Shown here: positions 1,212-1,748 of the stretch, piece by piece
Position numbering within the stretch: the stretch's first letter is position 1
How the letters are laid out: the number at the start of each line of letters is the position of its first letter
From: Deltaproteobacteria bacterium
GTDB taxonomy: Bacteria > Desulfobacterota > DSM-4660 > Desulfatiglandales > HGW-15
NCBI GenBank assembly: GCA_020342025.1
Contig: CP070840.1
Coordinates: 2,945,612-2,961,792 of the forward strand
DNA length: 16,181 nt
Direction of reading: 5' to 3'
Position numbers and translations under genes: made by a program
Notes under the pieces: model-generated
Database searches by the model: none
The model's input: only the letters and a program-made list of their open reading frames with translations
What the model was told of the DNA's origin: nothing

Positions 1212-1247
1212 CTGATACCGGATACCTGATGCCTGATGCCGGATTTG
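1212..1247 (+). repeat. Left arm of 36-bp inverted repeat made of 7-bp units
   Basis: This stretch is a run of five heptads fitting CNGATRC, the last one ending in TTT. It matches the reverse complement of 1713-1748 at 30 of 36 positions with no gaps. A further loose unit (GTGATGC) lies at 1202-1208. The two arms enclose the four-helix-bundle gene, 82 bp before its start. Confidence 0.85.
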
Positions 1248-1329
1248 GGAGGCGAGGCTGCGCAGGGAAAACTTGAAGTGGAATGCAGGATTTGATAGGG
1301 GGGACTGGACAAGAAAGGAGTCAAGGCAG

Positions 1330-1707
1330 ATGAGCTATAAGAGTTTGGAAATCTGGCAGCGGTGTCGTGAACTGACCATTGACATACACAAAATGACCAT
1401 CAATAAACTGCCAAAGTTCGAAATGTTCGAGGAAGGCAGTCAAATCCGCAAATCTATTAAATCAGCGAAGTCGACAATTGTGGAAGGTTACGGAAGACGG
1501 AGATACAAACAGGAATATATACGATTTCTGACTTATGCGATCGGCTCAACTGATGAAACGATCGATCACCTCGAGACGCTTTTTGAAACGGAATCATTAA
1601 AAGACGAGAAGTTATATAAGAACCTTCACAAGCGGCTTAATATTCTAGGAAAGAAGTTGATTCGATTCCTAGAGGCAGTAGAGAGAGGGCATATAAGTGA
1701 AAAATAG
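1330..1707 (+). CDS. Four-helix-bundle protein, 23S rRNA intervening-sequence (IVS/S23) family
   Basis: The 125-residue product has the family layout. It starts MSYKSLEIWQRCRELT, followed by a helix with IRKSIKSAKSTIVEGYGRR, then FLTYAIGSTDETIDHLETL, then a last helix rich in Lys and Leu. I chose the ATG at 1330 over the upstream one at 1273 because AGGAG (1316-1320) sits 9 bases before it and family members begin at this point. Homologues were first seen inside 23S rRNA intervening sequences, and related folds include Avd of diversity-generating retroelements; a molecular function is not established. By my count 1381-1620 is about 40% GC against 55-58% in sampled flanking gene lines, and AGA and ATA codons are frequent, which suggests transfer. 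Inverted heptad-repeat arms flank it at 1212-1247 and 1713-1748. No rRNA or reverse transcriptase is in the window. Confidence 0.85.
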   Translation: MSYKSLEIWQRCRELTIDIHKMTINKLPKFEMFEEGSQIRKSIKSAKSTIVEGYGRRRYKQEYIRFLTYAIGSTDETIDHLETLFETESLKDEKLYKNLHKRLNILGKKLIRFLEAVERGHISEK

Positions 1708-1712
1708 AAGAT

Positions 1713-1748
1713 CACATCCGGTATCTGGTATCTGGCATCCGGTATCAG
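1713..1748 (-). repeat. Right arm of 36-bp inverted repeat made of 7-bp units
   Basis: Read on the minus strand this is again five tandem units near CNGATRC, ending in CCGGATGTG. It begins only 5 bases after the stop codon of the four-helix-bundle gene. The six mismatches to the left arm fall mostly at the R and N positions of the unit, so the period is better kept than the exact sequence. Confidence 0.85.

Follow-up and report, generated by a model that had tools for sequence, protein, structure and literature searches.

Intervening sequences, REPINs and heptad repeats

The closest described systems are the intervening sequences (IVSs) of 23S rRNA genes, such as those of Coxiella burnetii and Azospirillum lipoferum 4B (locus L148), in which, as in the locus reported here, an S23 ORF lies between inverted terminal repeats. 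In the consulted part of PMC4990558, the role of the S23/IVS protein is described as unknown, tandem heptamers are reported from the 5′ arm of the IVS in Coxiella, and IVSs are noted to have been suggested earlier to be mobile. The arms of the A. lipoferum 4B IVS consist of heptads, as do those of our locus. However, IVSs sit in an rRNA gene, whereas the cassette described below sits in an ordinary convergent intergenic gap.

REPIN-RAYT systems resemble the S23 family in that a protein gene is flanked by its own short repeats and gene-less inverted pairs are dispersed elsewhere, but the RAYT protein is a Y1 (HUH) transposase and the REP repeat has a fixed palindromic sequence, in contrast to the four-helix bundle and the tandem units of free sequence found here (PMC3116915, in the part consulted). 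Insertion sequences and MITEs also differ, having fixed-sequence ends and a transposase of their own or of a partner, whereas the ends of S23 cassettes vary by lineage and no transposase is present. Diversity-generating retroelements share with S23 the fold of their Avd protein, but the S23 cassette contains no reverse transcriptase and no template or variable repeats.

A period of seven, as in the S23 arms, has been described in the G-rich heptads of Nostoc and Xanthomonas (PMC4692102), in the complementary 7-nt motifs of the Nostoc trnL P6b stem (PMC4476775) and in the TAACTGA repeats of Beggiatoaceae (PMC4679880). In Xanthomonas the heptads form convergent GGGAATC pairs, 70 and 75 of them in two genomes (PMC4692102). 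The origin of the heptad motif is described as unknown (PMC4476775), and a repeat-binding protein was suggested as the mobile element for the Beggiatoaceae repeats (PMC4679880). The parts of these three papers that we consulted do not tie their heptads to S23, and the tie is proposed here from other loci. More broadly, open-licence PMC full texts, as far as consulted (among them PMC11270868 and PMC10053308), gave no general link between S23 and inverted heptads. Pieces were known earlier, namely heptads in the Coxiella IVS, in Xanthomonas and in Nostoc, and the S23-heptad link is new among the open-licence papers searched, to the extent that these were seen. We know of no class that has period-7 ends of free sequence and an S23 protein as its defining features, and for this reason the cassette is set apart as a new kind; if IVSs are counted as the known kind, it may be a variant of them.

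An S23 gene between inverted heptad arms

The window (the whole stretch of DNA that was analyzed, 16,181 nucleotides from a Deltaproteobacteria bacterium) contains a cassette at 1212..1748 (+ strand) that is delimited by the outer ends of two arms, its exact ends being placed from the inverted repeat. The left arm (1212..1247, +) consists of heptads of the form GATRC plus two bases in the sense direction, and a leader (1248..1329, +; GC 54.9%) separates it from a gene for an S23-family four-helix-bundle protein of 125 aa (1330..1707, +). The right arm (1713..1748, −) carries the heptad type of the left arm in inverted orientation and starts 5 nt past the stop codon. The arms are 36 nt each, are complementary at 30/36 positions (83%) and lie 465 nt apart. 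Tandem Repeats Finder (TRF) reports a period-7 array of 4.4 copies in each arm (1214-1244 and 1716-1746), and among its seven rows for the window only these two have that period. The inverted-arm score is 21, and when the 250-nt flanks were shuffled 300 times at the mononucleotide level no score exceeded 13.5. The earlier note had described arms of this length and match, built of tandem heptads, with the right arm 5 bases beyond the stop codon, and the inverted-repeat search, TRF, the shuffles and the window sequence bear this out. The ORF is read from the ATG at 1330 and its stop codon ends at 1707; a mechanical ORF list begins the same ORF at a TTG at 1273.

The protein matches PF05635 (E 5.2e-23, 81.7 bits, curated cut-off 33.8) and TIGR02436 (E 2.4e-23, 82.4 bits, curated cut-off 24). 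Its AlphaFold2 model, built on an alignment of 90 of 96 rows, has a pLDDT of 95.5; a version with 16 relatives reached 51.5 and was set aside. Solved S23 proteins match the model (2GSC, TMq 0.86; 2RLD, TMq 0.75), so that the IVS-type four-helix bundle recognized earlier is confirmed by both profiles and fold; 2GSC is XCC0516, a Xanthomonas S23 protein. The likeness to Avd (4DWL) is more distant, with a TMq of 0.76, 11% identity and a Foldseek E of 0.24. In a set of 186 diverse S23 proteins, conservation reaches 98% or more at four residues (Q38, S45, E52 and E76, numbered as in the window's protein), which look like a shared polar site.

A Memo-like gene (PF01875) on the + strand and a gene of the Glyoxalase_4 family on the − strand flank the cassette, which agrees with the ordinary convergent gap described previously. 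The Pfam scan covered three proteins of the window. S23 is the sole protein encoded by the cassette, and a transposase is absent from it. The GC content of the S23 ORF is 40.2%, close to the figure of about 40% given before, and the contrast with the surroundings is real but smaller than the 55-58% given there would imply, as the Memo-like and glyoxalase-like genes are at 53.4% and 50.1% and the window at 51.3%.

Inverted heptad arms are general around S23 genes

A scan of genome contigs with a profile built from near relatives gave 205 confirmed places, the best 80 of which were used; according to record titles, these belong to Desulfobacterota kin, Anammoxibacter, Verrucomicrobia, Ignavibacteria, Bacteroidota, Neomarinimicrobiota and others. 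At an array score of 10, a period-7 array was present within 200 nt on at least one side of 63/80 window-like S23 genes and on both sides of 40/80 (81 genes including that of the window, less one that had no upstream sequence), compared with 41/2592 control windows elsewhere in the same contigs. Besides period 14, the only other periods found in more than 2/80 genes were 9 (7/80) and 11 (3/80). At a score of 9, the counts were 65/80 and 42/80 for window-like genes and 63/103 and 36/103 for other S23 genes, among which period 8 was scored by 15/103 and period 9 by 8/103; shuffled upstream flanks reached this score in 1/80 and 1/103 genes, respectively. The other S23 genes were Pfam-profile matches in 34 genomes that had been reached via window-like loci, and they are the better-scoring matches (30, 29 new and 60 further loci) rather than a random draw; the survey is centred on genomes chosen for holding a window-like S23.

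Of 220 S23 domains, 189 were kept after removal of duplicates, short flanks and short proteins. Inverted arms (score 12) flank 145 of these 189 distinct genes, with 44 below the threshold, and the number fell to 15/189 when the downstream flank was swapped with that of another gene (one random draw). Among 400 control ORFs from the same contigs (out of 448 eligible), inverted arms occurred at 8, an array on either side at 41 and arrays on both sides at 1. The arms are short and degenerate, which is all that speaks for a chance flanking of the gene by such repeats; the shuffles, the relatives, the control windows and the control ORFs refute this explanation, to which we give a negligible probability. 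The control windows and control ORFs likewise rule out that such arrays occur near any gene.

Of eight further plasmid S23 genes, taken regardless of repeats, 5/8 had an array on one or both sides, 2/8 had arrays on both, and 4/8 had inverted arms; 1/8 reached neither threshold. One plasmid locus (L301) has a period of 8, and in another (L295) the two longest arrays seem to run in the same direction instead of facing each other. In three flavobacterial loci (L056, L071 and L074), the units are 9 or 11 nt long (e.g., GTNAC plus TATA), seemingly a 5-nt core with a longer spacer, and longer units were read by eye in Aequorivita and Psychroflexus members. Overall, the array survey and the arms of relatives back the earlier proposal that the ends are set by repeat period rather than by exact sequence. 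On balance we favour the view that the window locus is a member of a widespread group of small transposase-less cassettes, each with one S23 gene between two convergent heptad arrays.

The heptad unit follows the S23 lineage

The unit varies across S23 lineages (e.g., GATGCTG, GGGTAAT, TTTTAAG, AGTCGTT, GGGAACA and GGGTGTA), and the two arms of one element tend to match in inverted orientation. In 48/51 window-like elements with both arms, the arms were more similar inverted than direct, and the mean within-locus similarity was 0.766 vs. 0.677 for shuffled partners (maximum 0.703 in 1000). Across 134 elements, heptad similarity and protein identity rise together (Mantel r 0.673, whereas 500 permutations gave at most 0.156). 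With the window's clade left out, r falls to 0.208 (68 elements; at most 0.117 in 1000 permutations), and that clade therefore carries most of the signal. When protein identity is below 30%, heptad similarity is 0.452 within the same genome (72 pairs) vs. 0.450 between different genomes (4290 pairs), and at 30-40% identity it is 0.475 (39 pairs) vs. 0.452 (2142 pairs). The heptad unit thus tracks the S23 protein lineage rather than the genome.

Within the window's clade, the consensus unit over 65 elements is G-[A/T]-T-N-C-T-G. At 60-80% protein identity (312 sampled pairs), similarity is 0.651 for the heptads vs. 0.283 for fourfold-degenerate sites, and the unit hence persists although fourfold sites are near random. 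The S23 protein is under strong purifying selection, since of 11 pairs examined, 7 were informative and gave dN/dS from 0 to 0.32; the remaining pairs are two plasmid pairs without synonymous change and two saturated ones, and a few rows of the set are partial genes. Shared descent together with array homogenization could be the source of part of the protein-heptad correlation. Sequence-specific recognition is the best explanation of the match between protein and heptad, and the suggestion in the earlier note that the protein acts on the repeats fits this co-variation. Judging from sequence comparison, we also lean toward the S23 protein binding the heptads.

Recognition might alternatively take place at the RNA level, with the arms kept as a stem of the transcript, RNase III excising the element, S23 serving a reverse transcriptase as Avd does, and movement proceeding via RNA. 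RNA folding predicts that the arms of the window cassette pair into a long stem (z −4.0), as is characteristic of the inverted terminal repeats of 23S rRNA IVSs, the S23 fold resembles that of Avd, and RNase III is reported to excise the Coxiella IVS at its stem (PMC4990558, in the part consulted). However, a stem selected on the sense strand would give more G.U than A.C mismatches between the arms, and we found 164 G.U and 161 A.C, with no excess of G.U. The arms are also hardly in register (59/101, mean gain 0.02). Fast array turnover could hide such traces of a stem. The balance of mismatches and the weak register point to repeated DNA sites, rather than to a strict RNA hairpin, as what is recognized, and we consider the RNA route quite unlikely.

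Empty sites and possible signs of movement

Relatives of the cassette show both occupied and empty sites. At one cyanobacterial plasmid site, the cassette of L141 and L142 separates an integrase gene from its neighbour, and these two genes are 3 nt apart in L152, L153, L154 and L157. At a second plasmid site, the cassette is present in L143 and L144, and the gaps are 50-52 nt in L150, L151, L156 and L189. Two other sequences have gene-less inserts at this second site, one with inverted heptad arms and a different interior (L149, ~1216-1476) and another with inverted TTCAAAA heptads (L155, ~1216-1556). In Aequorivita, the cassette at site A3 separates a stop codon from the start codon that follows, and these codons are 1 nt apart in a sister (L254); in a second sister the S23 gene is absent and 83 nt separate the matching blocks. 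At site A4, the blocks are 454 nt apart in one genome, and two other genomes have distances of 61 nt and 68 nt; this empty site rests on the collinear spacing of BLAST matches, since the largest gap in the alignment falls inside the gene. A further candidate, A5, was rejected, as the sister genome is not empty there.

The A. lipoferum 4B genome offers a comparison within a true 23S rRNA gene. The copy on AZO_p2 (identified with Rfam) has an S23 IVS with heptad arms, and the copy on AZO_p3 is empty; the IVS replaces 19 nt of the tip of a 23S hairpin in a helix that we take to be H45. By eye, no target-site duplication was seen at the plasmid, Aequorivita and 23S junctions.

The cassettes of L143 and L144 differ at 3/490 positions, whereas their flanks show 3-7 (right bins) and 10-24 (left bins) differences per 100 nt; in length, the two right arms are one 7-nt unit apart. 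This element could be younger than its flanks, with recombination as the alternative. In L141 and L142, the identical block extends over the left flank too. No near-identical cassette was seen at two places of one genome. In two further sets (L089, L170 and L221; L166, L179 and L190), S23 genes lie between alignable flanks in different genomes, with most of the S23 genes' own DNA not alignable by blastn, which suggests preferred landing places or old insertions.

These comparisons partly support the mobile cassette proposed in the earlier note. Presence and absence with empty sites in relatives and the heptad ends on a true 23S IVS speak for it, but the window site itself has no usable orthologous gap: relatives of the Memo-like gene in 3/12 genomes and in 2/241 of one class (one of these already counted) gave four loci, and the glyoxalase-like neighbour is absent from all four within the 3.6-4.1 kb examined at each. 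We consider it probable that S23 cassettes are a mobile family with cognate ends.

S23 might instead be a DNA-binding regulator or structural factor, with the heptads as its operators or anchors, gene-less pairs as its regulon, and distribution by ordinary horizontal transfer. This would account equally well for the protein-heptad co-variation and the purifying selection. On the other hand, arms that are always convergent and on both sides look like those of an element rather than like operators, as does insertion within a 23S rRNA helix, and at empty sites the arms have left together with the gene. We regard a purely regulatory or structural role as improbable.

Gene-less heptad pairs and a possible mechanism

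A heptad pattern has 51, 27, 365, 14, 65 and 3 occurrences in six genomes, compared with 2, 0, 2, 3, 0 and 0 for the reversed pattern. The complete genome G001 has GATRC arrays at 21 places, two of which flank S23 genes. With a simple pattern, the 19 gene-less places comprise 9 convergent pairs, similar to REPINs, 9 in which just one of the strands shows an array, and 1 with none. One of the gene-less hairpins has partial relatives at 8 other places. The earlier note had held that heptads common without the gene, and without empty sites, would speak against a mobile cassette. Such heptads are indeed common in this genome, but nine of the 19 places are convergent pairs, and empty sites do exist in relatives.

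The abundance of gene-less places could mean that S23 is cargo, with heptad hairpins arising by polymerase slippage, as a published hypothesis has it for heptads (quoted in PMC4692102, in the part consulted), spread by an unrelated enzyme and capturing S23 between two of them. The length change of one heptad between L143 and L144 is slippage-like. By contrast, cargo status does not predict that the heptads vary with the S23 lineage instead of the genome, that S23 is under strong purifying selection, or that a single protein family is carried across many phyla, and we find this explanation unlikely.

Under the preferred reading of a transposase-less mobile cassette, the S23 protein, a pentamer in solved relatives, would bind its own heptad array as DNA and bridge the two inverted arrays, marking the cassette for copying to new places, and convergent pairs without a gene would be marked by S23 in trans. 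The joining step would be done by host replication or repair, as the cassette encodes neither a nuclease nor a transposase, the junctions viewed showed no target-site duplication, and in one case the element took the place of a short piece of its target. That S23 drives the movement is possible, and we propose it with some reserve. Heptad-ended S23 cassettes seem to include the 23S rRNA IVSs as one case.

Even more tentatively, S23 proteins may be the sequence-specific recognition factors of a phylum-crossing kind of mobile DNA in which a period of seven, rather than a fixed sequence, marks the ends, each lineage reading its own heptad and moving, with host enzymes, its own cassette as well as gene-less pairs in trans. 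Its footprints might include rRNA IVSs, the cyanobacterial heptads, the trnL P6b stem, the Xanthomonas GGGAATC pairs and the Beggiatoaceae TAACTGA repeats. What we propose is thus a minimal class of mobile DNA that lacks its own transposase and for which 23S rRNA genes would be one landing place. The pairing of S23 with heptads makes both the role of S23 and the origin of the heptads testable, because each S23 protein is given a predicted DNA ligand.

Other genomic settings of S23 genes

A search for S23 in phage records gave no match at E 1e-5. In Anammoxibacter (L085), heptads like TAACTGA and TAACCGA (1221-1453 and 1983-2152) flank an S23 gene and resemble the TAACTGA repeats reported in Beggiatoaceae (PMC4679880, in the part consulted). 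In cyanobacterial plasmids, S23 genes are located inside CRISPR-cas operons (L295, 777-1136; L300, 789-1157; L296, 789-1145), in the order cas6-S23-cas4 twice and cas10/Cmr2-S23-Cmr3 once, and long heptad arrays are present at two of these loci (L295 and L300).
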